32,466 nucleotides of DNA from Eubacterium sp. Lineage in GTDB: Bacteria; Bacillota; Clostridia; Lachnospirales; Lachnospiraceae. This document shows, in pieces, positions 2,804 to 22,268 of the stretch. The notes under the pieces are model-generated. The model saw only the letters and a list, made by a program, of their open reading frames with translations. It was not told the DNA's origin and made no database searches. The DNA is taken from positions 1-32,466 of the forward strand of contig JAAVZE010000009.1 of assembly GCA_022791495.1 (NCBI GenBank). Direction: 5' to 3'. A program made the translations under genes and the position numbers. How positions within the stretch are numbered: position 1 is the stretch's first letter; every line of letters begins with the position of its first letter.

Positions 2804-4087
2804 ATGAATCGTGATGAGGTGACAAAGGAACTTATACTGGGGCGCTTTGATGACGCCCTTATCACACTATACGGGGACGATGAGAAAACACTGGCTGCAC
2901 AGAGGAAACGATATATCAGGGCAATCAAGAGTTTTGAGACAATTTACCCGGAAAGCGAAGATATTTCCATCTTCTCTGCTCCAGGAAGAACCGAAATATG
3001 TGGAAATCATACGGATCATCAGCATGGCTGCGTACTGGCAGCTGCCATTGACCTGGATGCCATCGCCATCGTATCCTTTCATAATGATCATGTGATCCGT
3101 CTCCAGTCGGTGGGATATGAACAGGAATTTATAGAACTGGACCATCTGGGTATACAGCCGGAAGAAAAAGGGACTTCCATGGCGCTGGTCCGGGGGATGG
3201 TTTCCCAGTTTCACGAGATGGGGATAGAGGTGGGTGGTTTTAACACATTTATCACTTCGGACGTCCTGTCCGGCAGCGGCCTATCTTCCTCTGCCGCCTT
3301 TGAGGTGCTGATCGGAAATATCATTGACCGGCATTATAACAACGGCAGGGCTGGGGCAGTAAAAATTGCCAAAATGGGGCAGTTCGCAGAAAATAAATAT
3401 TTTGGAAAAGAGAGCGGACTCATGGATCAGATGGTGTCTTCTGTCGGGGGATTTGTATTTATTGATTTTGAGGATACCACCGATCCTAAAATCGAAAAAC
3501 ACGAGTGTGACTTCGATCGGGGCGGACTAAAGCTGATCATCACAGACACCAAGGGCAGCCATGCTGATCTGACAGATGACTATGTATCAGTCCCATCGGA
3601 AATGAAACTGATCGCCGCACAGTTTGGAAAAACTGTTCTGCGGGAAGTAGAAGAAGAACAGTTTTACCATTCACTGCCTCATCTGCGGACCGTCTGCTCC
3701 GACCGCGCGATCCTAAGGGCAGCACATTTCTACGCGGACAATGCAAGGGTAGAAAAAGAAGTGGAGGCGCTGGAGAAAAAGGACTTTGAGACATTTCTGA
3801 ATCTGGTTCGGGAATCTGGAAGATCCTCTGCTGAATTACTACAGAATCTGTATTCCACAAAAAAACCAGTGGAACAGGGAATCCCACTGGCTTTGATGGT
3901 GAGCAGAAGGCTTTTGGGAGATGACGGTGCATTCCGTGTGCACGGCGGCGGGTTTGCCGGAACGATACAGGCCTTCGTCCCGGTAGATAAAATCGAGGAA
4001 TACAGGACAACCATGGAGGCATTGTTTGGGGAAGACTGCTGCTATATATTAAACATCCGCTCTGAGGGTGGATATCAGGTTATTTGA
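2804..4087 (+). CDS. galK: Galactokinase
   Basis: It phosphorylates alpha-D-galactose with ATP to galactose-1-phosphate, the first step of the Leloir pathway, in the cytoplasm. All three GHMP-kinase blocks are present. The galactokinase signature GRTEICGNHTDHQHG is near residues 65-79. The ATP-binding loop LSGSGLSSSAAFE is near 155-167. The C-terminal motif is VHGGGFAGTIQAF. At 427 residues it is longer than the roughly 390 of many bacterial enzymes, mainly at the N-terminus. The start has TGAGG 6 nt upstream. It is the first gene of galK-galE-galT with short intergenic gaps and sits behind the structured leader. The upstream region gives no clear GalR-type operator. Confidence 0.96.
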   Translation: MNRDEVTKELILGRFDDALITLYGDDEKTLAAQRKRYIRAIKSFETIYPESEDISIFSAPGRTEICGNHTDHQHGCVLAAAIDLDAIAIVSFHNDHVIRLQSVGYEQEFIELDHLGIQPEEKGTSMALVRGMVSQFHEMGIEVGGFNTFITSDVLSGSGLSSSAAFEVLIGNIIDRHYNNGRAGAVKIAKMGQFAENKYFGKESGLMDQMVSSVGGFVFIDFEDTTDPKIEKHECDFDRGGLKLIITDTKGSHADLTDDYVSVPSEMKLIAAQFGKTVLREVEEEQFYHSLPHLRTVCSDRAILRAAHFYADNARVEKEVEALEKKDFETFLNLVRESGRSSAELLQNLYSTKKPVEQGIPLALMVSRRLLGDDGAFRVHGGGFAGTIQAFVPVDKIEEYRTTMEALFGEDCCYILNIRSEGGYQVI

Positions 4088-4123: not shown

Positions 4124-5113
4124 ATGAGTCGTATTTTAGTGTTAGGAGGGGCTGGTTACATTGGTTCCCATACCGTTTATGAGTTGATCGATGCCGGAGA
4201 AAAGGTTGTTGTAGTGGACAATCTCCTGACCGGATTTAAGGAGGCTGTCCATCCAGAGGCAGTATTTTATGAAGGGGATATTCGTGACCGTTCCTTTATG
4301 GATTCGATATTTGAAAAAGAGGATATCGACGGCGTCATTCATTTTGCCGCCTGTTCCCAGGTCGGCGAGAGCATGAAAGATCCCCTTAAATATTACAATA
4401 ACAATCTGTGTGGTACAGAAGTTCTTTTGGAAAGCATGGTAGCCCATGGAATCGACAAGATCGTATTTTCTTCCACGGCGGCTACCTATGGAGAGCCGGA
4501 GAGTATCCCCATTCTGGAATCTGACCGGACGCTTCCCACCAACTGTTATGGCGAGACCAAGCTTTCTATGGAAAAGATGTTCAAATGGACTTCGCTGGCA
4601 CACGACCTAAGATACGTGTCCCTGCGCTATTTCAATGCCTGCGGCGCCCATCCAAATGGAAAGATAGGAGAAGCCCATGATCCAGAGACCCATCTCATTC
4701 CCCTGATCCTGCAGGTGCCCAATAATCAGAGGGACTATATTTCCATATTTGGAAATGACTATGACACAAAGGACGGAACCTGCATCCGGGACTATATTCA
4801 TGTGAATGATCTGGCACAGGCCCATATCCTCGCCATGAAATACCTGTGTAATGGTGGGGAGAGCAATATTTTCAATCTGGGAAATGGCGTGGGCTTTACC
4901 GTGAAGGAAGTGGTGGAGACCGCACGAAACGTTACCGGCCACCCCATCCCTGCAAAAGAAGAAGCGCGTCGGGCGGGAGATCCTTCCACTCTGATCGCCT
5001 CCAGCGACCAGGCAAAGAAAATACTTGGATGGGATCCCAAATATGCCGACCTGGACACGATCATCGACACGGCATGGCAGTGGCACCGGACACACCCTCA
5101 TGGCTATCTGTGA
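4124..5113 (+). CDS. galE: UDP-glucose 4-epimerase
   Basis: This extended short-chain dehydrogenase interconverts UDP-galactose and UDP-glucose using tightly bound NAD+. The 329-residue protein has the N-terminal Rossmann loop GGAGYIGSH (residues 8-16) and the catalytic Tyr-x-x-x-Lys at Y142 and K146 (NCYGETK). The upstream Ser/Thr block SSTAATYG is at 116-123, and the substrate-side motif LRYFNACGAHP follows. The length is normal for the family. GGAGG lies 8 nt before the ATG. It follows galK by 36 nt and completes the Leloir cycle with galT, which overlaps none of it and starts 35 nt downstream. Confidence 0.97.
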   Translation: MSRILVLGGAGYIGSHTVYELIDAGEKVVVVDNLLTGFKEAVHPEAVFYEGDIRDRSFMDSIFEKEDIDGVIHFAACSQVGESMKDPLKYYNNNLCGTEVLLESMVAHGIDKIVFSSTAATYGEPESIPILESDRTLPTNCYGETKLSMEKMFKWTSLAHDLRYVSLRYFNACGAHPNGKIGEAHDPETHLIPLILQVPNNQRDYISIFGNDYDTKDGTCIRDYIHVNDLAQAHILAMKYLCNGGESNIFNLGNGVGFTVKEVVETARNVTGHPIPAKEEARRAGDPSTLIASSDQAKKILGWDPKYADLDTIIDTAWQWHRTHPHGYL

Positions 5114-5148: not shown

Positions 5149-6636
5149 ATGATCAATAAGTTAATAACTGAACTGGTATCCTATGGCATCACTTCAGGAT
5201 TAGTTGAAGCAGAGGATCAGGTATATGTCACAAACCAGCTGCTGGAACTCTTCGATGTGATCGACTACGAACCAGTTGAACTTTCCGAAAAACGTGAGCT
5301 GGCGGAAATACTGGAGGATCTTTTGGACTATGCCTGGGCACAGGGAATCCTAAAAGAGAATACTGTAACCATGAGGGATCTCTTTGACACGAAGATCATG
5401 GGTAAACTTACCCCTGCGCCCTCTGTGGTCCGCAGACAGTTTGCTGATCTTTACCGCGTTGATCCTAAGCTGGCGACGGATTTTTATTATAAATTCAGCC
5501 AGGCAACCAACTATATCCGCAAAGACCGTATCGCAAAAGACGAAAAATGGGTGACTGAGACAGAATATGGCCGCATCGACATTACCATCAATCTTTCCAA
5601 GCCGGAAAAAGATCCCAGAGAGATCGCAAAGGCTGGACAGGCGAAAAAATCCGGCTATCCCAGCTGCCTGCTCTGTGTGGAAAATGAGGGGTACGCCGGC
5701 CATTATTCCCATCCTGCCAGGCAGAACCACCGTCTCATTCCCATCCTGCTGGACGAAGAAGAATATTTCCTGCAGTATTCCCCTTATGTGTATTACAATG
5801 AACACTGTATCATACTTAACAGGGATCATATCCCCATGAAGATCAACCGCAGTACCTTCCAAAAGATCCTGGAGTTTGTCAGGTTGTTTCCACACTATAC
5901 CGCAGGTTCCAATGCGGACCTGCCTATCGTGGGCGGCTCGATCCTGAGTCATGACCACTTCCAGGGAGGCGGCTATACCTTTGCCATGGCGAGAGCTCCC
6001 TATGACAAAACCTTTTCCCTCAAAGGATATGAAGATCTCACAGCAGGTATCATAAAATGGCCCATGTCTGTGATCCGTCTCCAGGGAACAGAGATTGAGC
6101 GCCTGGCAGATGCGGCAGAACATATTCTGACATGCTGGCGGTCATACTCCGACGAGGCGGCTTTTATCTTTCATGAGACTGACGGGATCCCTCATAACAC
6201 CATTACCCCCATCGCCCGCATGCACGATGAGCTGTTTGAGCTGGATCTGGTGCTCCGCAATAATATCACCACCGACGAGAGCCCCTGGGGCGTCTATCAC
6301 CCCTCGGCGGATCTCCATCATATCAAAAAAGAAAATATTGGGCTTATTGAGGTGATGGGACTGGCAGTGCTGCCGGCAAGATTGAAAAAAGAGATGGAAC
6401 TGTTAGAAGATGCCATTTTGAACAGAAGAGATCTCCGCGCCGATGAGCAGATCTGCAAACACGCTGACTGGGTTGATGGATGGATCGGAGACCACGAACT
6501 GAATCGGGATAATATTCACGGAATCATTCAGGATGAGATCAGTAGAGTCTTCGTCAAAGTACTGGAGTGTTCCGGTGTATATAAACGGAATGAAGATGGC
6601 ATGAACGCATTTTCCCGTTTTATTTCTTCACTTTAG
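5149..6636 (+). CDS. galT: UDP-glucose--hexose-1-phosphate uridylyltransferase, long Firmicute type
   Basis: It transfers UMP from UDP-glucose to galactose-1-phosphate, giving UDP-galactose and glucose-1-phosphate. The start is the ATG with GGAGG 7 nt upstream; the reading frame extends further up but only as overlap with galE. The 495-residue length and the sequence ILSHDHFQGG identify the second GalT class of Firmicutes rather than the short HPHxQ class. The His-Asp-His-x-x-Gln (H268, H270, Q272) corresponds to the nucleophile region. The stop lies 17 nt inside the convergent gene on the other strand, so the two transcripts are antisense at their 3' ends and no terminator fits between them. 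Confidence 0.95.
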   Translation: MINKLITELVSYGITSGLVEAEDQVYVTNQLLELFDVIDYEPVELSEKRELAEILEDLLDYAWAQGILKENTVTMRDLFDTKIMGKLTPAPSVVRRQFADLYRVDPKLATDFYYKFSQATNYIRKDRIAKDEKWVTETEYGRIDITINLSKPEKDPREIAKAGQAKKSGYPSCLLCVENEGYAGHYSHPARQNHRLIPILLDEEEYFLQYSPYVYYNEHCIILNRDHIPMKINRSTFQKILEFVRLFPHYTAGSNADLPIVGGSILSHDHFQGGGYTFAMARAPYDKTFSLKGYEDLTAGIIKWPMSVIRLQGTEIERLADAAEHILTCWRSYSDEAAFIFHETDGIPHNTITPIARMHDELFELDLVLRNNITTDESPWGVYHPSADLHHIKKENIGLIEVMGLAVLPARLKKEMELLEDAILNRRDLRADEQICKHADWVDGWIGDHELNRDNIHGIIQDEISRVFVKVLECSGVYKRNEDGMNAFSRFISSL

Positions 6637-7627
6637 TATAGGGGAGGAAGATATACTTTTCATTTTCAAAAGGGATATCTTCCAACCCCTTTCCTGTGAC
6701 AACGGCTTTCGCCAGTTTTGCCATAGCCGCTGCCTGTCCTTCCTTATCATGGTATACGGTGCCGGACAGTTTTCCTTCCCGCACTGCTTCCAGGCCCACA
6801 TCCGTTCCATCTATACCAAAAAATACAGGAAGTGCATTCTCCGTATAATTTAGCTTCTGATAAGCGTCCCAGGCGCCAAGGGCCATATCGTCATTATTTG
6901 CCAAAACTAACTCGATATTGCCCTGGTGCTGGCTGAGCAGCTGCATTGTGCGGTTTTGAGCCTGGGCGCGGTTCCAGTTGGCGATTCCGCTGCCCAGCTT
7001 CTCAAGCTCGATGCCGTGTTTTTTTAAGGTGTTCACGGCATTCTCTGTCCGGATGATAGTATCCTGATGAGAGGGTTCTCCCTCCAGCGCCACATATTGG
7101 ATTTTCCCATCATTATTTCGGTCTATCCTTCGATTGTTCTGAATCGCCTCTGCTGCCAGTTCTCCCTGCAGCACACCGGATTGTTCTGAATCAGCGCCCA
7201 CATAATAAAGTCCGTCCCACCGAAGCATATCCTCTTTTACCGGTTCTCTGTTAAAGAAAATAATAGGCGTATTATTTTTTCTAGCCAATTCTATGATGTC
7301 TGACGGATCCGTCCGGTCCACCAGATTCACACAAAGCACATGGCACCCTCCGTTGATCATCTCCTCCACCAGGTCATCCTGTATCTGCTGCGAGCCAGAT
7401 GCCCCCCGGACTGTCATCGTTATATCCAGATCTTTTCCCCCCAGGTCTTCCATCTTCTCACGGATACAGGCGATAAGCTCATTCATAAAGGTGTCACTCT
7501 GATCGTAATATGTCAACCCCACATGCAGTTTCTCCCTTGTCCTCGGGTTATTTTTTTCACAGGCGCCAAGAAACAGCAGGCTCATGCAAAAAATGATCCC
7601 TGCTGCCAGAATTTTTTTCCTTTTCAA
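6620..7627 (-). CDS. Galactose/glucose-binding lipoprotein (MglB-like, normal domain order)
   Basis: The 335-residue protein starts at a TTG preceded by GGGGGG at 6 nt. The signal peptide ends in LFLGAC (lipid-modified C23), so it is tethered outside the membrane. Compared from memory with E. coli MglB, all sugar contacts are present: D45 and F47 (SDTF), N126 (FFNREP), H187/D189/R193 (SHQDTIIR), W218, N244 or N245 (ANND) and D273. The calcium loop DRNNDGKIQ is also retained. It therefore should bind galactose or glucose. It is the last gene of the operon, 11 nt after a membrane-anchored binding protein and close to the kinase. That position suggests a role in sensing or as a second transport receptor; the sequence cannot decide. 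Confidence 0.88.
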   Translation of the reverse strand: MKRKKILAAGIIFCMSLLFLGACEKNNPRTREKLHVGLTYYDQSDTFMNELIACIREKMEDLGGKDLDITMTVRGASGSQQIQDDLVEEMINGGCHVLCVNLVDRTDPSDIIELARKNNTPIIFFNREPVKEDMLRWDGLYYVGADSEQSGVLQGELAAEAIQNNRRIDRNNDGKIQYVALEGEPSHQDTIIRTENAVNTLKKHGIELEKLGSGIANWNRAQAQNRTMQLLSQHQGNIELVLANNDDMALGAWDAYQKLNYTENALPVFFGIDGTDVGLEAVREGKLSGTVYHDKEGQAAAMAKLAKAVVTGKGLEDIPFENEKYIFLPYTKVKK

Positions 7628-7638
7628 GTTAATCCCCC

Positions 7639-8616
7639 CTATTGGCTCATTGTTAGAATTATCTCCTGATTTTTCTTGGTAAACAGCTCTTTTCTGCGGA
7701 GCACGGTAAAAGACAGGATCTTTCCTTTCATATTGTGTGAGTATAGACCCAGGTTCTTTGCTGACTCCGTCAGACTCTGGTATCCCCTGTCAAATTCGTC
7801 AGGCACCAGTAGACACTTTACCATACCTGTATCCAGATAATAAACTGCTTCTGTGGAATTTCCGATTCCATAGACCAGTGCCCCATGAAGTTCCTTTGCC
7901 ATCACACATTCTCCCGCCTTCGTCAGACTGACATCGTCCAATGCGATCACCAGATCTGTTTTCGACTGGTTTTCCAGTAAATTATGATTGGTCTCCTCAC
8001 AGGACACACAGACGTTCCAGCTGATCCGGGCTCCCTTGCCATTTAATACATCCTCAAAGCCCTTTTTCCGTCTGACGGCCTCCACGGAGTCTTCATTCTG
8101 TACTATGATTCCCAGCACCTTTCCTTTTACATTTCCGTTAAAATCCCGTAGAACTTCCTCCGCCAGTGCCTTTCCCATATGATAATCATCCGGGCATGTA
8201 ACCGGAATCTGGGATTTTTCCCCATCCTCTGATGCAGGATCGCCCACAAGCATAATAGGAATTTTTTTTGAGGCCTCTTTTAATTTTCTCACGGCGTCTT
8301 CCCCCGGAACCGGCTGAAGAATCACCGCATCCACCCCATTGTCAGCCTCGTTTCTGATCATATTGATTTCTTCTTCCAAGGTCAAAATATCTCCTGTGCT
8401 GACGACAAATACCTCCACACCCTGATCTTCTGCCGCCATTTTCAGACCATACCGGAAGGCAGACCAGCGGCTGGCATCCGGATCCGGAATGATCACGGAA
8501 ATCCTGGGGCGGTCTTTTCCGCTCTGTTCCCTGACCATAATAAACGCCAGCACAATGATCATAGAAGCCAGCGCAAATTCAATAATAATAAATAATCCTT
8601 TGCTGTTCAACATCAT
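7639..8616 (-). CDS. Membrane-anchored periplasmic-binding-like protein, probable sugar sensor partner of the kinase
   Basis: The N-terminus carries one hydrophobic helix (about residues 8-26) without a lipobox cysteine, followed by a Peripla_BP_4-type sugar-binding fold. The evidence for the fold is RPRISVIIPDPDASRW at the first strand, VDAVILQPV, and the hinge-type blocks VIALDDVSLTKAGE and VYGIGNSTEAVYYLDTG. Normal strand order is kept. The galactose contacts of MglB are not conserved, so the ligand may differ or the protein may act through protein contacts. Its ATG overlaps the stop of the histidine kinase (TAATG), indicating translational coupling. Comparable binding protein plus YesM-type kinase pairs act as extracytoplasmic sugar sensors in Firmicutes. 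Confidence 0.8.
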   Translation of the reverse strand: MMLNSKGLFIIIEFALASMIIVLAFIMVREQSGKDRPRISVIIPDPDASRWSAFRYGLKMAAEDQGVEVFVVSTGDILTLEEEINMIRNEADNGVDAVILQPVPGEDAVRKLKEASKKIPIMLVGDPASEDGEKSQIPVTCPDDYHMGKALAEEVLRDFNGNVKGKVLGIIVQNEDSVEAVRRKKGFEDVLNGKGARISWNVCVSCEETNHNLLENQSKTDLVIALDDVSLTKAGECVMAKELHGALVYGIGNSTEAVYYLDTGMVKCLLVPDEFDRGYQSLTESAKNLGLYSHNMKGKILSFTVLRRKELFTKKNQEIILTMSQ

Positions 8617-10475
8617 TATTTGTCCTGTTTTTCCCTGTTATTGATCGCATCTGCACCAAACATATGCCCCTTTTCAAGGATCCGACGATTTTCATCGGTA
8701 TAGGGTACTGCCGGTATGCAGATGGAAACCGTCGTTCCCTCGTCTGGCTCACTTTCTACCACCAGTCCGTATTCTTTTCCAAAGAGCATCTGAATCCGGT
8801 TGTTGACATTGATAAGTCCCACACCAGAACCATGTTTATGAATCCGGTCACTATCTGTCAATACCAGTTCAGCCTCTTCCTCTGACATGCCCAACCCATT
8901 ATCCGCTACGGAGAGAATGATCCTCTCCCCTTGTTTCTGTGCCTCCACCCGGATCTCCCCGGAATCATCCATACTGCTCACACCATAACTGATGGCATTT
9001 TCCAATAGTGGCTGCAGCACCAGCTTTACACTGCAGTAGGTATAAACAGCCGGATCCACATCAAAGATGACAGTAAACGCATTTTTATATCGGATCTTCT
9101 GGATATTCATATAACTTTTGGCATGCTGCAGTTCATCCTGAACACGGATTACAGTCTGGCCTCTGGAAAGACTGATGCGAAAAAGCTTTGCCAGTTCCGA
9201 GATCATAAAGACCGCATCATCATTTCGCTCCCCCTCGACCATCCACGTGATGGAATCCAGCGCATTATAAAGAAAATGAGGATTAATCTGGCTCTGCAGT
9301 GCATCCAGCTCACTCTTCCTTCTCTCATTCTGCTCCTTCACGATTTCCTGCATCAGCTTGTCAATCTGCTCATAAGAACGCTGGATCGAATGGCCAAGAT
9401 GCCGGATCTCCTGAGAACCTCCGATATAGATCTCCGGTTTTTCTCCCGCCTCGTATTCCCTTACGGAGTCGTTCAACTTTAAAATCGGACTGGAAATCTT
9501 CACGGAAACCACGCGATTGATCACAGCCAGCATCATCGCCATCAAAAGAATGATCATAATAATAAAATACCGGATATCAAACATTCCCTGTGTAAATGTA
9601 GACTCCGGAATCACACCCACCAACTTCCACCCTGTATAACTCACTGTTTTAATGATCAGCTTCCGGTGCTCTCCCCCGAATTTTTCCCCATAAACACCAT
9701 CCTTATAAGCGGCTGCAGCTATATTATTTTCATGAAAGCTCCCATTGCTGATCTGCATCTGCTTTTTATGGTAGATAATCTCTCCATTGCTGTCACACAA
9801 ATAATAATACTGACCAGTATCCGAAGTGTTGGAGTTGATGCGCCGCAGCATTCGGGAAACACCTGAAAAATCCATGTCCACCAGAAGCACCCCGGACATA
9901 GGAGTTCCCCGGTCTGTGAAATCCACCACACGGCTCAAAGAGATCACCCAGTAATAACGTCTGGTAGCATCATCAAATAAATTCTGAATGTGGGGAGTAG
10001 AAAAATGCGTATTTTCTATGGCCTCCATCGCCTTTTCAAACCAGGACTGATGAATCACATCTGGATCTTCCTTCTGGGAAGCCACCGGTTCCGCTGCCAT
10101 CAGGCTTCCATAATCATTATATATTGCGATGCTGCGCAGATGGCTCCGATTTGCCTCATATATGATATTCATCCCCTGCTGTATCTTATTATCCTGAGAG
10201 GAAAGATCATTTTCCTTGATCACATTATAATAGACCGTATCAGAGATCTGCCGCATGGCAATCAGATATTCCTCCAGTCTCTCCCTGGTCTGTTCCATCA
10301 GTGTCTCCGTATCCTGAATCATCTCCCGCTGGGACAGGGCAGAGAATTTCATGTACATTACAACGCCCAGAACCAGCATAATAGAAACCGATATAAGAGA
10401 AAAAGCCAGCATAACCGTAGACTGCATTCCCTTTGGTTTTAATCTCCCCATATATTCCCACAACTTAATCTTCAC
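8616..10475 (-). CDS. YesM/LytS-type sensor histidine kinase
   Basis: The 619-residue membrane kinase has a first transmembrane helix at about 20-44 and an extracytoplasmic sensor of roughly 250 residues (Cache-like). A second helix lies at about 302-322, followed by a HAMP segment and a coiled coil. The His_kinase block QINPHFLYN has the phospho-acceptor H400. The ATPase lobe has DNGLGM and GSGVGLINVNNR as nucleotide-binding G boxes. The start used is GTG with GGAG 10 nt upstream; ATG at codon 9 is possible. It overlaps the regulator gene by 11 nt, so the two are translated together. It presumably responds to sugar through the binding proteins encoded just downstream and phosphorylates the AraC-type regulator. 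Confidence 0.9.
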   Translation of the reverse strand: MKIKLWEYMGRLKPKGMQSTVMLAFSLISVSIMLVLGVVMYMKFSALSQREMIQDTETLMEQTRERLEEYLIAMRQISDTVYYNVIKENDLSSQDNKIQQGMNIIYEANRSHLRSIAIYNDYGSLMAAEPVASQKEDPDVIHQSWFEKAMEAIENTHFSTPHIQNLFDDATRRYYWVISLSRVVDFTDRGTPMSGVLLVDMDFSGVSRMLRRINSNTSDTGQYYYLCDSNGEIIYHKKQMQISNGSFHENNIAAAAYKDGVYGEKFGGEHRKLIIKTVSYTGWKLVGVIPESTFTQGMFDIRYFIIMIILLMAMMLAVINRVVSVKISSPILKLNDSVREYEAGEKPEIYIGGSQEIRHLGHSIQRSYEQIDKLMQEIVKEQNERRKSELDALQSQINPHFLYNALDSITWMVEGERNDDAVFMISELAKLFRISLSRGQTVIRVQDELQHAKSYMNIQKIRYKNAFTVIFDVDPAVYTYCSVKLVLQPLLENAISYGVSSMDDSGEIRVEAQKQGERIILSVADNGLGMSEEEAELVLTDSDRIHKHGSGVGLINVNNRIQMLFGKEYGLVVESEPDEGTTVSICIPAVPYTDENRRILEKGHMFGADAINNREKQDK

Positions 10476-12075
10476 CCTCTATATGCTCCCTTCTGTATTT
10501 TGAAGGAGACACGCCAAACTTTCGCTTAAATACATAACTAAAATAATTCGGGTCCGTGTACCCGACATTTTTTGCAATAATATAGCTTTTCTCATTTGTC
10601 TCAATCAACTGCTGTGACGCCCGTTCCATGCGATAGTCCGTCAGATACCGGATAAAGGAGCTCCCCGTCTCTTTTTTGAAAACACTGGAAAAATAAGAAT
10701 TCGACACACCTAGTACTTCACAGACACGGTCCAGGGAAAGATCTTCATCCCCATAGTTATGATGGACATACTCCTCTGCTCTTGTCACAAAGGATCTGGT
10801 AGACTTGTTTCGTGCAAAAATCAGCTTTTCGCGAAAGGAAAGGCTGCAGTCTATCAGCCATTTCCTAAACTCAGCCGGCTCCAGGTCAAATATGCTGCTG
10901 TACAATTTTCGGATATCCTGGGAAAAATCTTCCGCCGAAATATCATTATTCAACGCAAAACGATACAATGTGCTAACCAGTTCCATCATATCCACATGGT
11001 GCTGCTGCAGGGATTTGTTGGGAAAGGAAGTGTGCTGTAGATACTGGTCTGCAGCCTGAACCACTTCTTTTTCAGATCCCAGCCGAATCATTTTAAAAAG
11101 ATTAGATACCTCCGCGTCATTCGCCGGACCGGGCTGGATGATCTCACCAGGAACCACTTCCTGCACATTGATGGCCCTGGCAGCACCATAGATCACCCGG
11201 TATGACACAGCCTCCCTTGCACCGATATAAGATGATGAAAGCGCTAAAATCGAATCACAGACCGAACCTATGCCAACAGTAACTACCGCCCCTATAATAC
11301 TTTTGGCGTACTTACAGAACCGGTCACACTCGTCTGTCAGCTCTGATACTTCATTTTCCGTCCCAAGCTGTGAGATCATAATTGTGTTTCCAAGATAAGA
11401 AAAACATTTGGCCCGCCATTTTTCTGCCAGCCGTTCTTTTGCCTGCCTGTGTACCGAGGTAGCCAGCAGAAGAGGATTCATATTCGCAGGCACCTGGTTA
11501 GAAGACGTATGGATCACAAGGCAGCAGAAAAATGGTCCGGGAAAAGAGAGCTGGTAATCGGTGAGATAACCAGAGATCTCTTCCTCCAGAATGCTGCCTT
11601 CGATAAGAGACGTATAGAAGTTTGCCTGCAGAAGAGGAAGTGAATCCATATAATACTTCTGAAGGATTTCTACATTTCGTTTTTCACTGATCTCATGATC
11701 CAGTTTTATCTTCAGCCGCGTAAACACATTGGTCAATTCTACTGAATTCACGGGTTTTAGAATATATTCCTCCGCCTCCAGGCGCACCGCACCTTTGGCA
11801 TATTCAAATTCATCGAATCCGGTAAAAAACAGGATTTTCGTGGCAGGATATTCTGCCTTGATGCGGCGGGACATTTCCATTCCGTCCATAAAGGGCATTC
11901 GGATATCTGTCATCACCACATCCGGCTGAAATTCCTCAACCATCTCAAGGGCCTTTGCCCCGTTATTGGCATGTCCTGCCACAGAAAAACCCAGTCCTTC
12001 CCAATTGATCTTACGCATTATGACCTGGATCACTTCTTCTTCATCATCCACCAGAAGTACTGAATATTTATCCAT
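10465..12075 (-). CDS. YesN-type response regulator with AraC DNA-binding domain
   Basis: The start is the ATG with GGAGG 4 nt upstream, giving MDKYSVLLVDDEEE; an ATG four codons earlier lacks a good site. The receiver domain (about 1-120) has acidic pocket D10/D11, phospho-acceptor D57 (MTDIRMP), T85 and K107 (ILKPV). A long middle region (about 130-420) is as in YesN proteins. The last roughly 110 residues form two AraC helix-turn-helix motifs (LSLDRVCEVLGVSNSYFSSV and the second helix pair around YTDPNYFSYVFKRKFG). It should control transcription of the sugar uptake genes once phosphorylated. The gene lies 58 nt after mglC and overlaps the kinase. Confidence 0.92.
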   Translation of the reverse strand: MDKYSVLLVDDEEEVIQVIMRKINWEGLGFSVAGHANNGAKALEMVEEFQPDVVMTDIRMPFMDGMEMSRRIKAEYPATKILFFTGFDEFEYAKGAVRLEAEEYILKPVNSVELTNVFTRLKIKLDHEISEKRNVEILQKYYMDSLPLLQANFYTSLIEGSILEEEISGYLTDYQLSFPGPFFCCLVIHTSSNQVPANMNPLLLATSVHRQAKERLAEKWRAKCFSYLGNTIMISQLGTENEVSELTDECDRFCKYAKSIIGAVVTVGIGSVCDSILALSSSYIGAREAVSYRVIYGAARAINVQEVVPGEIIQPGPANDAEVSNLFKMIRLGSEKEVVQAADQYLQHTSFPNKSLQQHHVDMMELVSTLYRFALNNDISAEDFSQDIRKLYSSIFDLEPAEFRKWLIDCSLSFREKLIFARNKSTRSFVTRAEEYVHHNYGDEDLSLDRVCEVLGVSNSYFSSVFKKETGSSFIRYLTDYRMERASQQLIETNEKSYIIAKNVGYTDPNYFSYVFKRKFGVSPSKYRREHIEGED

Positions 12076-12133
12076 AAAGCCTCCCATGCAGTATTTATCT
12101 CACGGCGCCAATTTGAGCCCATTTCTTAACCAG

Positions 12134-13660
12134 CTATTTCTTCTGTACATATTTCAAACAATCCAGTGTAACCGCCACAAGGATAATGATGCCAGAGAAT
12201 ACAAACTGCAGATTCGTATCAATTCCCAGAATCGTCAGAGAATAGGTCAGCGCAGTGAAAATAATTACACCGACTACGACACCGGAGATTTTACCAATAC
12301 CACCGGTAAAGGATACACCTCCCACCACGCAGGCCGCGATGGCGTCCATCTCCCAGCCCTGGCCATAGGCTGCAGAACCGGAGCCTACCATTCTCGCACA
12401 TTCCAGCCAGGAACCAAAACCATACAGAATACCTGCCATAATAAAGGCGCCGACGGTCACTTTGAATACGGAAATACCGGAAACAGAAGCTGCTTCTGGG
12501 TTTCCACCCACAGCATACAGATTTTTACCAAAGGTTGTCTTATTCCAGATAAACCACACAATCACGACTGCTGCCGCCGCCCAGAGAATGATCGTTGGAA
12601 AACCATTTACCTTCGGGATGATCATGTTTGGAATCACAGGTTCGATGGCTCCAAATGAAACACCCTTCGTGGCATAGGTGACAAGTCCAAAGATCACCAG
12701 CATATTTGCCATCGTGGAAATAAAAGGATGCATCTTGAACTTTGCCGTAAAGAAACCTGCGATGGCGGTAAAGACCGTGCACAAAAGGATACAGACAACC
12801 AGCGCAAAGACCACCCTCAAAGCGATAGGCATCTGTGTAAAATCAAAAACATGTCCAAATACAGAACCGGTATTGATCCCCTGATGCATAATGATCGTCG
12901 CTGCGGTCATTCCCATTCCCACCATACGGCCAATGGAAAGGTCGGTACCGGTAAGAAGGATCAATCCTGCCACACCCAGGGCGAGAAACATTCTTGGGGA
13001 AGCCTGCTGCAAAATATTCAGAACATTGTTGTAGGTCAGCAGCGGTGCATTTTTTACCATCGGTGTGATAATACACAGCATAATGAAGATCAGGGCGATG
13101 GCAATATACAATCCATTCTGCAGTAGGAAGGTTCTGCGGTTAAAGGTATATTTATAATTTTCCCATTTCTGCGCTATGGATTCCCCTATGGTAAATTTGG
13201 ACATACGAAGAAGGTCGATCAGATGAAATTTGTATGTGTACGCCGCATGTCTCCGGTCTTTGATCTGCTGAAGATCTTTGTCTCTCTTCATCTTTGCATC
13301 AAACAGACGGTTTTTATAAACATATTTTTCATCCTTGATCTCCTGGTGGTCCGTAAGCTTCTGCATGATCTGTTCATGCTCCCGCTTCAGTTCAGCAATC
13401 TTACTGTCGTAATTGCTCTTAACCTCTGCCTTTTCCAGCTCGCAGCCTGCCTTTACTTTCTGGTAATATTCTGAATCGAAATGCTTGCTCAGATAGCCTT
13501 CCGCATCCTGAACCAGCCTTGAAATCTCTCCTTTATTGGGAGAATCCTCTGCCCTGAGACCGTCAATCTTTTCCTGGATCCTGCCAACGTAATCTTCGAT
13601 CGGCTTCCTCAGCTGCATTTCCTCTTCTGCTGTAAGAATCTTACTTTTTTCATTTGTCAT
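12134..13660 (-). CDS. mglC: Galactose/methyl galactoside ABC transporter permease with long N-terminal coiled-coil extension
   Basis: The C-terminal part, from about residue 180, matches the MglC/RbsC permease family. It includes LGVAGLILLTGTDLSIGRMVG, the cytoplasmic loop WNKTTFGKNLYAVGGNPEAA and DAIAACVVGGVSFTGGIG, with eight or more membrane helices. The E. coli protein is about 336 residues; this one is 508. The extra N-terminus of about 175 residues is highly charged, with long runs of Glu, Lys and Gln (for example ELKREHEQIMQKLTDHQE). It looks like cytoplasmic coiled coil, with no signal peptide. It would dimerise and pair with MglA. It starts 18 nt after mglA with GGGAG spaced well, consistent with one operon. 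Confidence 0.93.
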   Translation of the reverse strand: MTNEKSKILTAEEEMQLRKPIEDYVGRIQEKIDGLRAEDSPNKGEISRLVQDAEGYLSKHFDSEYYQKVKAGCELEKAEVKSNYDSKIAELKREHEQIMQKLTDHQEIKDEKYVYKNRLFDAKMKRDKDLQQIKDRRHAAYTYKFHLIDLLRMSKFTIGESIAQKWENYKYTFNRRTFLLQNGLYIAIALIFIMLCIITPMVKNAPLLTYNNVLNILQQASPRMFLALGVAGLILLTGTDLSIGRMVGMGMTAATIIMHQGINTGSVFGHVFDFTQMPIALRVVFALVVCILLCTVFTAIAGFFTAKFKMHPFISTMANMLVIFGLVTYATKGVSFGAIEPVIPNMIIPKVNGFPTIILWAAAAVVIVWFIWNKTTFGKNLYAVGGNPEAASVSGISVFKVTVGAFIMAGILYGFGSWLECARMVGSGSAAYGQGWEMDAIAACVVGGVSFTGGIGKISGVVVGVIIFTALTYSLTILGIDTNLQFVFSGIIILVAVTLDCLKYVQKK

Positions 13661-13678: not shown

Positions 13679-15187
13679 TTATAGGTATTTTGCACTGAGT
13701 TTTAAAAGTTCTTCCTGATCTGTCTCATTGGTATTGACGATACCAGAAAGACGTCCGTTTGACATGACGCCAATACGGTTTGTGATCCCAAGGATCTCCG
13801 GCATCTCAGAAGAAACGACGATAATGGTCTTTCCCTGTTTTGCCATATTGATAATCAGTTCGTAAATCTCATATTTCGCTCCCACATCAATTCCCCTGGT
13901 GGGTTCATCCATCATAAATACCTCTGGACTTCGTTCCAGCCATTTTCCCATGATTACCTTCTGCTGGTTCCCTCCCGACAGACTGGAAATCATATCCTCC
14001 GGTCCCATGCACTTCGTATGCATGATGTCAATCTGCCTTGTGGTTGCCCTGTTCATCTTCGGATTAGAAAGCGCCACCCCGGAGCGGTACTGTTTCAGAT
14101 TGGCAATGGTGGTGTTGAAGATCAGATCACCTTTTAGAAAGAGACCATTCGCTTTCCGCTCCTCTGTGATCATGGCAAAGCCGTGATCCATGGCATCTTT
14201 CGCACTGCTGAAATTCATAAGGCGATCCTTAAAGTAAACACGCCCTGCCGCCCTGGTACGGACACCAAAGATCGTCTCCAGAAGCTCTGTCCGCCCGGCG
14301 CCCACCAGTCCATACAGCCCAAATATCTCTCCTTCCCTCACGTCAAAAGAAATATCCTGCAGATTAGGCTCAAACTTCGTGGACAGATGCTGCACCGAAA
14401 GAACAACCTCTCCTGGCGCATTGTCAACCTGTGGAAAACGGTTTTCAAGAGAACGTCCCACCATCGCTGCGATCAGCTCATTCATATCCGTATCTTTGCT
14501 GTTCTTTGTCATAACAAGATTTCCATCCCGAAGAACAGATATCTCATCACATATTTCAAAAATCTCGTCCATTTTATGTGAAATGTAGACAAGAGAAATC
14601 CCCTGTTTTTTTAACATCCGCATCATCTCAAAGAGCTTATCCACTTCCTGAACAGTAAGAGAAGAAGTAGGTTCGTCCAGAACAATGACCCTGGAATGAT
14701 AGGAGATGGCTTTGGCGATCTCACACATCTGCCTCTGGGATACGGACATATTCCGCATAGGCTGGGTGAGATCAACGGTCATCCCCAGTTTCCTGAAAAG
14801 TTCAGAAGCCTCTCTTTTCATTTTCCCCTCGTCCACTACCCCCATGGAATTCCTGGGATACCGCCCCAGAAATAGATTATCAATCACATTTCTTTCCAGA
14901 CATTGGTTCAGTTCCTGATGCACCATTGCGATGCCATTTTCAAGAGCATCCTTCGGTCCAGAAAAATTTACTTCTTTTCCTTCCAGAAAGATCTTGCCCT
15001 CATCCTTTTGATATGTGCCAAAGAGACACTTCATCATCGTTGATTTGCCAGCGCCGTTTTCTCCCATCAGTCCCATGACTGTGCCCGGCTTCACGTCCAG
15101 ATTAATACGGTCCAGGACTCTGTTCCGGCCAAAGGACTTGCTCATACCCCGTATCGACAGGATAATATCATTTTTTTTATCTGCCAT
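13679..15187 (-). CDS. mglA: Galactose/methyl galactoside ABC transporter ATP-binding protein
   Basis: The 502-residue protein has two fused ABC domains, as in MglA, RbsA and XylG. Domain one has Walker A GENGAGKST (42-50), signature SVSQRQM and Walker B VIVLDEPTSSL. Domain two has the degenerate Walker A GLVGAGRTELL typical of the family, signature LSGGNQQKV and Walker B VFMMDEPTRGID. It powers uptake through the MglC permease. The start chosen is ATG at MADKKNDIILS, which matches the family N-terminus. The frame is open 17 codons further upstream, but that extension has no homologous look. The ribosome binding site is weak (AAGG, 13 nt away). Confidence 0.94.
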   Translation of the reverse strand: MADKKNDIILSIRGMSKSFGRNRVLDRINLDVKPGTVMGLMGENGAGKSTMMKCLFGTYQKDEGKIFLEGKEVNFSGPKDALENGIAMVHQELNQCLERNVIDNLFLGRYPRNSMGVVDEGKMKREASELFRKLGMTVDLTQPMRNMSVSQRQMCEIAKAISYHSRVIVLDEPTSSLTVQEVDKLFEMMRMLKKQGISLVYISHKMDEIFEICDEISVLRDGNLVMTKNSKDTDMNELIAAMVGRSLENRFPQVDNAPGEVVLSVQHLSTKFEPNLQDISFDVREGEIFGLYGLVGAGRTELLETIFGVRTRAAGRVYFKDRLMNFSSAKDAMDHGFAMITEERKANGLFLKGDLIFNTTIANLKQYRSGVALSNPKMNRATTRQIDIMHTKCMGPEDMISSLSGGNQQKVIMGKWLERSPEVFMMDEPTRGIDVGAKYEIYELIINMAKQGKTIIVVSSEMPEILGITNRIGVMSNGRLSGIVNTNETDQEELLKLSAKYL

Positions 15188-15246
15188 AATTATAACCGTG
15201 CCTTTCCGTGACCTGCAAACCTTAGACCGCAGGCACAAATTTGCCT

Positions 15247-15349: not shown

Positions 15350-16642
15350 TCACTGATTCAATAACGCGGTATAAGAAGCTGCGTTATCCGTCTTAACCAT
15401 ATTGATGGCAAAGGCATCGTACTGACCCGGATTTCCAAGACGGTTTGTAATGTTTGACTCGGTCTGGCCGTCACCGCCAATATAATCAACCTCAAGATTG
15501 AGCAGATCGTCATATTTCTGAAGAAGCGGCTGATAGGTCGAACTCAGGAAGTTATCGGAAGAATTGTAAATATTCAGCCAGACTTTCTTCACTGCACTCT
15601 TACCTTTATCAAGCTGTTTGGATACTGGCTCATAAACCTTGGTTGAGTCTGTGAAATCCTGATAATTCTCACCTGTCACTGCCACATTCAGCGCATAATA
15701 GGAACGCTCGTCCTCTTTGTAGGTGTATACCTCTTTTGTCAACACATTGCCTGCTTCATCTGCCGTACCGATTCCTGTATCTATATCTACCCCATCCAGT
15801 GCATTGCGGAGAACGCGAAGTGTCAGATATGCCTGCACATCTGCATGCTGGCTGATGGTTCCGCCATATCCTTCTGCGATCGCCGCAACTGCGTCATTAT
15901 TCGCATCATATCCAAAGGTTGGAACTTTATTATCCTTAGACCATGCATTGAACATGGACATACCCATTCCATCGTTATTGGAAACTACTACATCGATCTC
16001 TTTCCCAAAAGAAGAGGACCAGGTTCCAATAGCGTTTCCGGCTGTAGCGGCATCCCATGTTGCACCAGCGGAGTTCTTCATCTCCTGGGAAGCAAGTTCG
16101 CGGACTACATATTTCTTTCCTCCGATCTCCAGTGAACCATCTTTCACAGCAGAAGCCTTTCCGTCTACATTGGTGCCCACCGGCTCGCTATTGATATCGC
16201 CGTCTTTGTCTACCCCTGTACCAAGCGCTTTACGAACACCTCTCGTACGTGCAATGGAATCATTGTGTCCGATATCCCCGATAGCGAGTACATAACCGAT
16301 TACCCCGTCGCCATTGCGGTCAATCTTATCGATATTTTTCTCGATATAGTCCTTTACCATCGTTCCCTGGAGTTCGGCGCCCTGATTGGCATCGAAGCCC
16401 ACATAATAGGTATCCTTATTAAATGACATGGCTGTCTTGTCCAGTTCTCCGGTGGAACTGTTGGATGGCTGGCGGTTATACCATACTAACGGTTTATCTT
16501 TGTTGGCTACCGTTGATGTGCTGCCTCCATCTGCTGTCGTGCCTGAACCACCTGATGTGCTGTCACCGCCATTTGATCCACAGGCTGTGAGTGAAAGCCC
16601 AAGTACCATTGCCATTGTTAAACAAAGTATTTTTTTCTTCAT
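15350..16642 (-). CDS. Circularly permuted galactose/glucose-binding lipoprotein (MglB homologue)
   Basis: The start is ATG with GGGAG in GGAAGGGAGAAAGAA; a frame 33 codons longer has no site. The signal peptide ends at LTAC (lipid-modified C21), followed by a Gly/Ser/Thr linker to residue 46. The mature domain does not begin like MglB. It opens at KPLVWYNRQP (51-), which aligns with the MglB block PVVFFNKEP around mature residue 91. It then runs through the calcium loop DRNGDGVIG and H126/D128/R132, W196, N222 or N223 and D246. The missing MglB N-terminus appears at the C-terminus: VWLNIYNSSDNFLS (354-367, contacts D363 and F365) through AINMVKTDNAASYTALLN (412-429). All known sugar contacts are therefore retained in permuted order. 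It is probably the receptor of MglAC. Confidence 0.9.
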   Translation of the reverse strand: MKKKILCLTMAMVLGLSLTACGSNGGDSTSGGSGTTADGGSTSTVANKDKPLVWYNRQPSNSSTGELDKTAMSFNKDTYYVGFDANQGAELQGTMVKDYIEKNIDKIDRNGDGVIGYVLAIGDIGHNDSIARTRGVRKALGTGVDKDGDINSEPVGTNVDGKASAVKDGSLEIGGKKYVVRELASQEMKNSAGATWDAATAGNAIGTWSSSFGKEIDVVVSNNDGMGMSMFNAWSKDNKVPTFGYDANNDAVAAIAEGYGGTISQHADVQAYLTLRVLRNALDGVDIDTGIGTADEAGNVLTKEVYTYKEDERSYYALNVAVTGENYQDFTDSTKVYEPVSKQLDKGKSAVKKVWLNIYNSSDNFLSSTYQPLLQKYDDLLNLEVDYIGGDGQTESNITNRLGNPGQYDAFAINMVKTDNAASYTALLNQ

Positions 16643-16737: not shown

Positions 16738-17565
16738 TCACATTAAAAATTTTTCGTAAATGCTACGGTCGCTGTCCTGAAAAACATTAAAAATAATTCG
16801 TTCTATAGGATCACTATGTTTTTCCAGAAAAGCAGTTACCGTTTCCCAGGCAATTTCCGCCGCCTTATTCTTTGGAAAACGAAATTCTCCTGTGGAAATA
16901 CAGCAAAATGCGACAGATTTGATATTATGTTCCAGACAGCATTTCAAAACATTTTCATAGCAGTTCCGCAAATCCTGACACAGCCTTTCATTCAGTCTGC
17001 CATTTACAATTGGTCCCACTGTATGGATCACATATTTACTGGGAAGATTATAGCCTGAAGTCAATGTAGCTGTGCCGGTTGGTTCTGCATATTTTCGCCC
17101 ATATTTTAACCGCCTGCGGTTCATGATATGGTTACATTCTTCACGAAGCTGCAGCCCTGCCGCACTGTGGATAGCATTATCAATACATCTGTGACAAGGT
17201 ACAAAACAACCCAGAAGCTGTGAATTGGCAGCATTCACAATGGCGCCAGCCTCCAGTCTTGTAATATCCCCCTGCCAGAGCGATATTTTTTCGGCGCAGA
17301 ATGATTTACAATTATAAACTTCTTTTATGGTTGGGATATCCTCTATCTTTACGATTCCTTTTGCCTTTAATTCTTCCTGCAGATAACTGTCCTGTGATTC
17401 CACTAAGCCATCAGGAAGATCTCCCGGCATACGGATATTCATAAGGGAACGAATTGCATTTTTTGCCTCATCTAATCTGTAGCTGCTGCTTTCAAGTTCT
17501 TTATATTCCGCCGAATCTGCTTTTAATCTCTCCAGAAAAATATCTGTTTTTTCCCTTCCGTTCAT
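16738..17565 (-). CDS. Zinc-containing macrodomain protein-ADP-ribose hydrolase (SirTM-linked)
   Basis: The 275-residue protein has an N-terminal helical part and a macrodomain from about residue 90: WQGDITRLEAGAIVNAANS, then HTVGP and the STGEFRFPKN loop. The macrodomain is interrupted by GCFVPCHRCIDNAIH (C120, H125, C127), the zinc-binding signature of the zinc macrodomain class that reverses SirTM-type ADP-ribosylation in staphylococci and streptococci. The start chosen lies 1 nt after the sirtuin stop (TGAAATG). An alternative ATG 13 codons earlier would overlap the sirtuin. It is the last gene of a three-gene unit (SnoaL-like, sirtuin, macrodomain). It should remove ADP-ribose that the sirtuin places on a target protein. 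Confidence 0.9.
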   Translation of the reverse strand: MNGREKTDIFLERLKADSAEYKELESSSYRLDEAKNAIRSLMNIRMPGDLPDGLVESQDSYLQEELKAKGIVKIEDIPTIKEVYNCKSFCAEKISLWQGDITRLEAGAIVNAANSQLLGCFVPCHRCIDNAIHSAAGLQLREECNHIMNRRRLKYGRKYAEPTGTATLTSGYNLPSKYVIHTVGPIVNGRLNERLCQDLRNCYENVLKCCLEHNIKSVAFCCISTGEFRFPKNKAAEIAWETVTAFLEKHSDPIERIIFNVFQDSDRSIYEKFLM

Positions 17566-17566
17566 T

Positions 17567-18439
17567 TCAACTATCAGTCCTTCCCCACAATCTGTTCCGA
17601 TCATGTAAATCAGGTATTACCTGTGCCATATCACCACCGATCCCCATCATCCTGCTCCCGAGATTTTCTGGAACAGCCGCCTCATTCATATTCAGCCGGA
17701 TCAAGGATAGATTTTTGTTTTCCCACACCATTTTTTCAAAGGGAAAGCGGATGATCGTGGGGGTGTTAAACCCAACACCAAGCTCTAACAGTACGCCTTT
17801 CTTATTTTCTAATTTTTTTAAAAAATCCTTATACTTTCCGGCAGCCTTATACCAGTTTTCATCTTCTACAAAATACTGGTCGGAGCGAAGGTTCATTGTC
17901 ATATTTCCACCGCAGACCGGGCATTTCGGCACCATATAAGACGGCACCAGGCAGCCGCGTCTTGCCTGGTGCATCTCATAAAACAAATCTTCTGCGTCAT
18001 AAATCTTTGGATGGCATCCCTTCTCACACTGGATATTACCATAATCCCCCTGGGTAGCAAAAATGCGATCCGTCTCAAATCCGGCCTTTTGAAACTGGTG
18101 GTCAACATTTGTTGTCAAAACAAAATAGTCTTTTTCTTTCACCATTTCATAAAGCTGGTTGTATAACGGCATGGCAGGCGGGAGAAAACGGTTGATCATG
18201 CTGTGCATTGACCAATAACCCCATTTTGCCTCCTGCGTGGGAAATGGATAAAAACCAGCGGTATACATATCCGTCATATACCTGGAACCATATTTTTCTA
18301 TGAACTCACTGAAATTACTGGTAAACCGTTCTCCACTGTACACAAGCCCGGCGGCAGCGGAAGCTCCCGCTCCCGCACCAAGCAGTACCACCTCAGCTTC
18401 CTTTAACAATAAAGATGCCTGAATGATCTGATTCTCCAT
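17567..18439 (-). CDS. Class M sirtuin (SirTM), probable protein ADP-ribosyltransferase
   Basis: The start is ATG with GAGG 6 nt upstream (MENQIIQ), giving 290 residues; an ATG 14 codons earlier has a poorer site. The NAD-binding loop LLGAGAGASAAAGL is near residues 19-32, and the TTNVDHQF block gives N111 and D113. Where ordinary sirtuins have the catalytic His-Gly, this protein has Q130-G131 (ATQGDYGN), as known for SirTM enzymes, which ADP-ribosylate rather than deacetylate. Four cysteines (C138, C142, C173, C176) would hold the structural zinc. It sits directly upstream of the zinc macrodomain gene, the classic pair. No lipoate-carrier or lipoate-ligase gene is present in the window, so the acceptor protein is unknown. 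Confidence 0.92.
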   Translation of the reverse strand: MENQIIQASLLLKEAEVVLLGAGAGASAAAGLVYSGERFTSNFSEFIEKYGSRYMTDMYTAGFYPFPTQEAKWGYWSMHSMINRFLPPAMPLYNQLYEMVKEKDYFVLTTNVDHQFQKAGFETDRIFATQGDYGNIQCEKGCHPKIYDAEDLFYEMHQARRGCLVPSYMVPKCPVCGGNMTMNLRSDQYFVEDENWYKAAGKYKDFLKKLENKKGVLLELGVGFNTPTIIRFPFEKMVWENKNLSLIRLNMNEAAVPENLGSRMMGIGGDMAQVIPDLHDRNRLWGRTDS

Positions 18440-18485
18440 ATGAATCCTCAACCTCTTTTCTAAATTACTGCATTCTTTCATGCAA

Positions 18486-22211: not shown

Positions 22212-22268
22212 TTTCACTCCTTTTTTTATTTTTTAATCCTTTCACAATTTGAATTTTTAATCAAATTG

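Follow-up and report, generated by a model that had tools for sequence, protein, structure and literature searches.

A Eubacterium sp. gene cluster that encodes both a circularly permuted MglB-type lipoprotein and a canonical MglB

A stretch of Eubacterium sp. DNA (Lachnospiraceae; GenBank assembly GCA_022791495.1, contig JAAVZE010000009.1, positions 1 to 32,466), whose whole length of 32,466 nucleotides is called the window below, carries on its reverse strand a lipoprotein gene at positions 15350..16642 (mglB-cp; 430 amino acids plus a stop codon, from the translation and profile matches). The question raised by this locus is whether a sugar-binding protein of the MglB type is encoded here with its blocks in swapped order, whether such a protein is new, and what it would do beside a canonical MglB encoded in the same cluster. 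The mglB-cp product is indeed an MglB-type sugar-binding lipoprotein with the start of the N lobe at its C-terminus, and it is a member of a known permuted subclass, the TpMglB-2 type, for which it is ordinary. A preliminary description, made from the letters of the DNA, had proposed a natural circular permutation that should keep sugar binding. This stands, in that a colinear, permuted and glucose-binding relative has been solved, but the permutation as a novelty is ruled out by the TpMglB-2 structures and by a 2016 paper in which the class, including Gram-positive members, was published (PMC4990184). What the analysis adds includes the pairing of a permuted with a canonical gene and an extension of the permease MglC, and these are the parts that merit follow-up.

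Block order and the known permuted class

A profile of canonical MglB was built from 63 sequences, most of them canonical MglBs that the fetched loci carry as linked genes and a few of them RbsB-like. Its positions 90-298 match residues 45-297 of the mglB-cp product (116.6 bits) and its positions 6-84 match residues 346-422 (11.6 bits, i-Evalue 0.012); therefore, the block order is swapped, and, as first described, the mature part starts at the later MglB block and the C-terminal end corresponds to the MglB N-terminus. The C-terminal match was found in 112 of the 112 permuted sequences searched (that of Treponema pallidum, the 113th, was outside that search), with weak i-Evalues (0.0018-6.3) for this block when single sequences were matched to the profile hidden Markov model (HMM). 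More specifically, 110 of 111 C-terminal modules lie in register with the N-terminus of the profile (median 13.7 bits); a single one of 2220 shuffled modules does so, and none of the 111 reversed. These controls took 111 of the 113 permuted sequences (two without a recognised module start were dropped), and loci L010 and L144 stand outside the permuted set. The 111 modules come mostly from close relatives, include identical copies (100 distinct full sequences among the 113) and are not independent, and the T. pallidum module taken alone scores 5.1 bits, less than the 8.4 of the best shuffle. Profile-profile comparison, whose score is not raised by sequence copies in the way that module counts are, gave 32.9 for the real C-terminal module and 11.0 for its reversal, with a mean of 12.7 (standard deviation 2.4) and a maximum of 23.1 over 100 column shuffles. 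Because the single E-values are weak, the modules non-independent and the T. pallidum module low, the swap claim rests on the consistent register and the profile-profile score, and on these sequence comparisons the register is not a product of composition. A normal strand order was not found, and the last 80 residues fall on the MglB N-terminus, the two points on which the preliminary description had staked its claim.

The precursor opens with a signal peptide and the lipobox LTAC (residues 1-21, with Cys21; 16580..16642), called by eye and by regular expression, and continues with a low-complexity Gly/Ser/Thr/Asp linker (residues 22-49; 16496..16579, from the sequence), so that both elements precede the new N-terminus as had been proposed; the mature domain begins at Lys50. 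The N-terminal module (residues 50-297; 15752..16495, from the HMM match) corresponds to MglB from about residue 85 onward and retains the calcium-binding loop DRNGDGVIG noted earlier (residues 108-116; 16295..16321, from the sequence), whose role is assigned from the homologous loops of TpMglB-2 and E. coli MglB (PMC4990184). A connector (residues 298-351; 15590..15751), delimited by profile and structure-relative alignments, takes the place of the fourth hinge of TpMglB-2 and of the extended stretch that follows it (PMC4990184), and leads to the relocated C-terminal module, which corresponds to the MglB N-terminus (residues 352-430; 15353..15589, from Pfam and profile matches). The Pfam model Peripla_BP_4 matches residues 75-284 with its profile positions 93-256 (of 258), and Peripla_BP_7 is the one that matches the moved block, at residues 352-421; the NCBIfam model of canonical MglB (NF011924) matches in two stretches with 90.6 bits, short of its cut-off of 420. 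All of these elements lie on the reverse strand.

Residues 47-428 are colinear with chain residues 19-385 of the 387 in TpMglB-2 (best E 2.2e-87, 45% identity; T. pallidum Tp0684, PDB 5JX2, 6BGC and 6BGD), and E. coli-type MglB chains match in pieces only. This is a colinear match of more than 90% coverage with a matching N-terminus, as used for searching in the 2016 paper itself (PMC4990184), and strands 1-3 of the MglB N lobe are moved to the C-terminus, as judged from the register, its controls and Peripla_BP_7. That paper described the TpMglB-2 permutation (strand order 5-4-6-1-2-3, with a fourth hinge), proposed a subclass 'Type Ic/Cluster Bc' with TpMglB-2 as founding member and already noted a 'Gram Positive/Gut' clade of members; the authors saw no obvious advantage of the topology (PMC4990184). 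The two proteins have in common the block order, the permutation point, the connector and the calcium loop, and they agree in nine of ten pocket residues, among them a Gln at the position of E. coli N256. They differ in the equivalent of Asp14 (Asp363 in mglB-cp, Asn311 in TpMglB-2), in about 14 more residues of mglB-cp around 143-166, and in gene context, mglB-cp being flanked by gal genes and by a sensory module that includes a canonical MglB, as noted for the window locus only. E. coli MglB, for its part, resembles mglB-cp in nine of ten sugar contacts, the calcium loop and the two-lobed family, but has the normal block order without the connector (PMC4990184).

The preliminary description had also moved the tether to a different lobe position. 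The tether would move, but within the N lobe, since both termini of TpMglB-2 lie there (PMC4990184). At the level of genomes, Peripla_BP_7 was detected in 32 of 299 from the family of the window, 2 of 398 drawn from its phylum, 4 of 391 from its class and 2 of 61 from another family, draws that overlap and of which the family, phylum and class ones count the window's own genome; it was seen in 0 of 14 control genomes, and none of 36 pattern matches on viral contigs was a relative.

Sugar pocket and the proposed roles of the two MglB proteins

The sugar contacts named in the preliminary description (N56, H126, D128, R132, W196, N222/N223, D246, D363 and F365) are present where it had placed them, and nine of the ten contacts listed in Table 2 of the 2016 paper (PMC4990184) are as in E. 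coli MglB; that every contact is kept holds up to one position, E. coli N256, which is Gln265 in mglB-cp. All ten positions hold the residue of either TpMglB-2 or E. coli MglB, and all 100 distinct permuted sequences, that of T. pallidum among them, have Gln at the N256 position. Departures at the contact positions in these 100 are limited to Ile for D128 (L143) and Asn for D363 (T. pallidum), so that the Asp14-equivalent is Asp in 99 of them and Asn in TpMglB-2. Asp14 of E. coli MglB touches O4 of the sugar, the position that distinguishes glucose from galactose. Galactose is probably a physiological ligand of the mglB-cp product, as judged from this conserved Asp14-equivalent and from three genes on the forward strand of the window: galT (5149..6636, start MINKL assumed, with the open reading frame (ORF) listed from 5029) and galE (4124..5113), both above curated cut-offs, and a galK-like galactokinase gene (2804..4087), assigned by resemblance (matched by five NCBIfam galactokinase models, none of which reaches its cut-off).

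On the reverse strand, mglB-cp heads an mglB-mglA-mglC gene run, in which mglA (13679..15238; ORF from a TTG, the ATG of MADKKND being the likelier start) encodes the importer ATPase and mglC (12134..13660) a permease with BPD_transp_2 at residues 213-496, preceded by an N-terminal extension of about 185 residues that gave no Pfam match at E 0.001. Further along the same strand follow a response regulator with receiver and AraC-type helix-turn-helix domains (10465..12087), a sensor histidine kinase with dCache_1, His_kinase and HATPase_c (8616..10475), a second binding protein, PBP2, with Peripla_BP_4 and, by eye, an N-terminal hydrophobic anchor (7639..8616), and a canonical-order MglB lipoprotein of 335 amino acids (6620..7627). 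The canonical gene thus lies 7.7 kb downstream of mglB-cp, behind the two-component system and the anchored binding protein.

The reading preferred here, to which a probability of about 0.88 is given, is that mglB-cp encodes a member of the permuted MglB subclass; it would serve as receptor of the importer, with the canonical MglB on the sensory side. Gene position and homology make the mglB-cp product very probably the permuted transport binding protein, and a split of transport and sensing between the permuted and the canonical MglB is mildly favoured. Specifically, the permuted lipoprotein would be anchored by its lipid at Cys21, close on galactose (probably glucose too) between its lobes and, when loaded, deliver the sugar to MglA/MglC, after which GalK, GalT and GalE would metabolise it. 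PBP2 and the canonical MglB may form a sensory arm with the histidine kinase and the regulator, through which the operon would be induced in the way that CuaD serves CuaABC. This arm is proposed because of the gene layout, in which a binding protein gene stands beside those of a histidine kinase and a response regulator, and because of the precedent of CuaDSR in Ruminiclostridium cellulolyticum, where a dedicated sensing binding protein is encoded beside a two-component system, with XylFII-LytS cited alongside (PMC10384115). Both CuaDSR/CuaABC and the cluster in the window combine a second binding protein and a two-component system controlling an importer that has its own binding protein, but CuaDSR senses cellobiose and the available text of that report mentions no permuted receptor, so that the likeness is one of layout only (PMC10384115).

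The layout can be compared across 80 loci with near end-to-end matches to the permuted query, none titled as a spirochaete. These are the best 80 of at least 525 relative-encoding stretches among at least 594 candidates, in a scan of genome contigs that counted relatives among the matches listed, the permutation itself not being scored. The order mglBcp-mglA-mglC-response regulator-histidine kinase-PBP2-canonical mglB occurs in 44 of the 80; in 5 the histidine kinase, PBP2 and canonical mglB lie upstream instead, in L088 the histidine kinase and canonical mglB do, 15 present mglBcp-A-C alone and another 15 are partial or mixed, some loci in these counts ending at contig or locus ends. Two loci from the window's genus (L197, L198) have the full gene order followed by galT, and gal genes stand beside a permuted mgl in L199 and beside canonical mglBAC in L179 (galT, galK) and in L180 and L181 (galT, galK, galE). 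These arrangements bear on the strongest rival, in which the canonical MglB also feeds MglA/MglC and both proteins are transport receptors without division of labour. This appears unlikely, since the canonical gene stands behind the regulator, kinase and PBP2 genes, away from mglA and mglC, in those 44 loci, still adjoins PBP2 in the 5 with the upstream arrangement, and is missing from some long-flank loci that have mglBcp-A-C.

Several results weigh against an importer receptor of the permuted class paired with a sensory canonical MglB. A canonical mglB on the same strand was not found in 30 of the 80 loci, many of them cut by contig or locus ends, and seven (L039, L061, L069, L082, L095, L096 and L111) extend more than 5 kb beyond mglC without sensory genes. 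To these are added the low T. pallidum module score, Gln265 in the pocket, and the affinity of TpMglB-2, about 30-fold tighter for glucose than for galactose (PMC4990184), an older measurement quoted in that paper being near-equal (150 and 250 nM). AlphaFold also gave a poor model of the mglB-cp product, with a mean predicted local distance difference test (pLDDT) of 61.7 and a predicted template modelling score (pTM) of 0.57; against TpMglB-2 its template modelling (TM) scores are 0.33-0.38, with root-mean-square deviations of 8-11 over 232-236 residues. The best structural matches of this low-confidence model are the TpMglB-2 structures, colinear over 36-367, and its C-terminal predicted elements run E304-H316-E335-H348-E362-H371. 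Structure prediction, which the preliminary description had put forward as a check, was therefore only partly decisive, and because the permuted model is too weak the case rests on the solved relative and the sequence register.

Turning to MglC, 185-235 residues precede the membrane core in 71 of the 73 permuted loci that have the gene, which looks interrupted in the two exceptions (L051, L088). The extension was seen in 0 of 12 canonical-operon MglCs (with the count begun at the preceding stop codon, no more than 55 residues stand before the core), from 13 regions fetched (L179-L191). The link between permutation and extension is one event if the permuted clade has a single origin. The listings of literature searches on the operon layout, Peripla_BP_7 and an MglC extension included nothing apparently relevant, which is not proof that the layout is unpublished. 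One could imagine that permutation and extension act as insulation, the permuted MglB docking to the importer only and the canonical MglB to the sensor kinase only; this is improbable, and, if true, two receptors for the same sugar could be co-expressed from one cluster without cross-docking. The MglB-2 and MglB-1 pair of T. pallidum would fit this by analogy and in outline, a fit limited by MglB-1 (predicted canonical fold), whose gene lies outside the transporter operon and whose glucose binding was doubted (PMC4990184). With permuted and canonical MglB in one gut-commensal cluster, the purpose of the permutation becomes testable by swapping them. As a natural comparison for the permuted clusters, L195 (1771-11125) keeps the order of the seven genes but fills the transport position with a canonical MglB, and its MglC lacks the extension.

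Origin of the moved block

The origin of the moved block, possibly from another gene, was left open in 2016 (PMC4990184), and the window locus bears on this question. A true permutation of an MglB-like ancestor, with both pieces MglB-derived, is supported as far as sequence comparison reaches. The C-terminal module scores 29.3-32.9 across five MglB profiles; against 24 MglB-type proteins it scores 31.8, against subsets of 7 and 17 of them 30.7 and 29.3, against nine RbsB-like proteins 20.6, and against eight other clusters (three being single sequences) 11.8-17.9. The rest of the protein gives the same ranking (261.2 for the 24 MglB-type, 99.8 for the RbsB-like and 14.7-70.4 for the eight other clusters), the sampling covering Bacillota-type genomes and one T. 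pallidum sequence. Capture of the block from a different gene that converged on the shape of the MglB N lobe, a chimera as raised in the 2016 paper, would suit the weak conservation of the block (in which TpMglB-2 and E. coli MglB are 13% identical; PMC4990184), the weak single-sequence and T. pallidum scores given above, and the RbsB-like profile, which aligns in the same register with a score inside the shuffle range. It is nevertheless very unlikely, because the block fits the MglB N-terminus in register, against the shuffled and reversed controls, and scores higher with MglB than with other sugar-binding profiles, in the same order of preference as the remainder of the protein; the equivalents of Asp14 and Phe16 are also kept.

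Quick trees without bootstrap placed 15 chosen permuted sequences, T. pallidum included, in one clade with a support of 100 in the Shimodaira-Hasegawa-like approximate likelihood-ratio test (SH-aLRT). Slightly less probable still is an origin of the permuted gene as a local tandem copy of the canonical mglB nearby: permuted and canonical genes do share a gene run, and the approximately unbiased (AU) test, on a tree that left out 12 long, odd or duplicate rows of the first, does not reject a clade of permuted and linked canonical sequences (p 0.0845), but the two are together in neither free tree and the clade of permuted sequences is set apart by a long stem of 2.3 changes per column.

Divergent members and other genes of the window

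Some relatives depart from the common pattern. A divergent permuted MglB (L143 and L192, 7642-8913) has Ile in place of the D154-equivalent, and neither mglA nor mglC was recognised within the 16 kb covered; it is possibly an orphan receptor. By motif calls, an AxA-like signal peptide without a lipobox is apparently present in 6 of 99 distinct permuted precursors, those of L006, L013, L017, L082, L087 and L091, which have no lipobox cysteine and are apparently secreted without a lipid anchor; L023 fails the lipobox filter yet shows LAGC. As some members seem to have lost the lipobox, membrane tethering, an idea of the 2016 paper (PMC4990184), is disfavoured as what maintains the topology. For the linked canonical MglBs, linker lengths come from only 13, the others falling outside the pattern.

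Within the window, a TAA inside the canonical MglB match was considered and is the ordinary stop codon of that gene. Upstream of mglB-cp, at 16738-18481, a macro-domain gene overlaps a Sir2-like gene (SIR2 match below cut-off), an arrangement that resembles known sirtuin-macrodomain pairs. Further genes encode a glycoside hydrolase (19914-22217) that combines a GH30-type beta-sandwich with CBM_4_9 and ricin-type lectin domains, and a repeat protein (30368-31990) in which several near-identical Cys/His-rich repeats were recognised by eye, with a fibronectin III domain at its C-terminus; the zinc-finger matches of this repeat protein are probably spurious.
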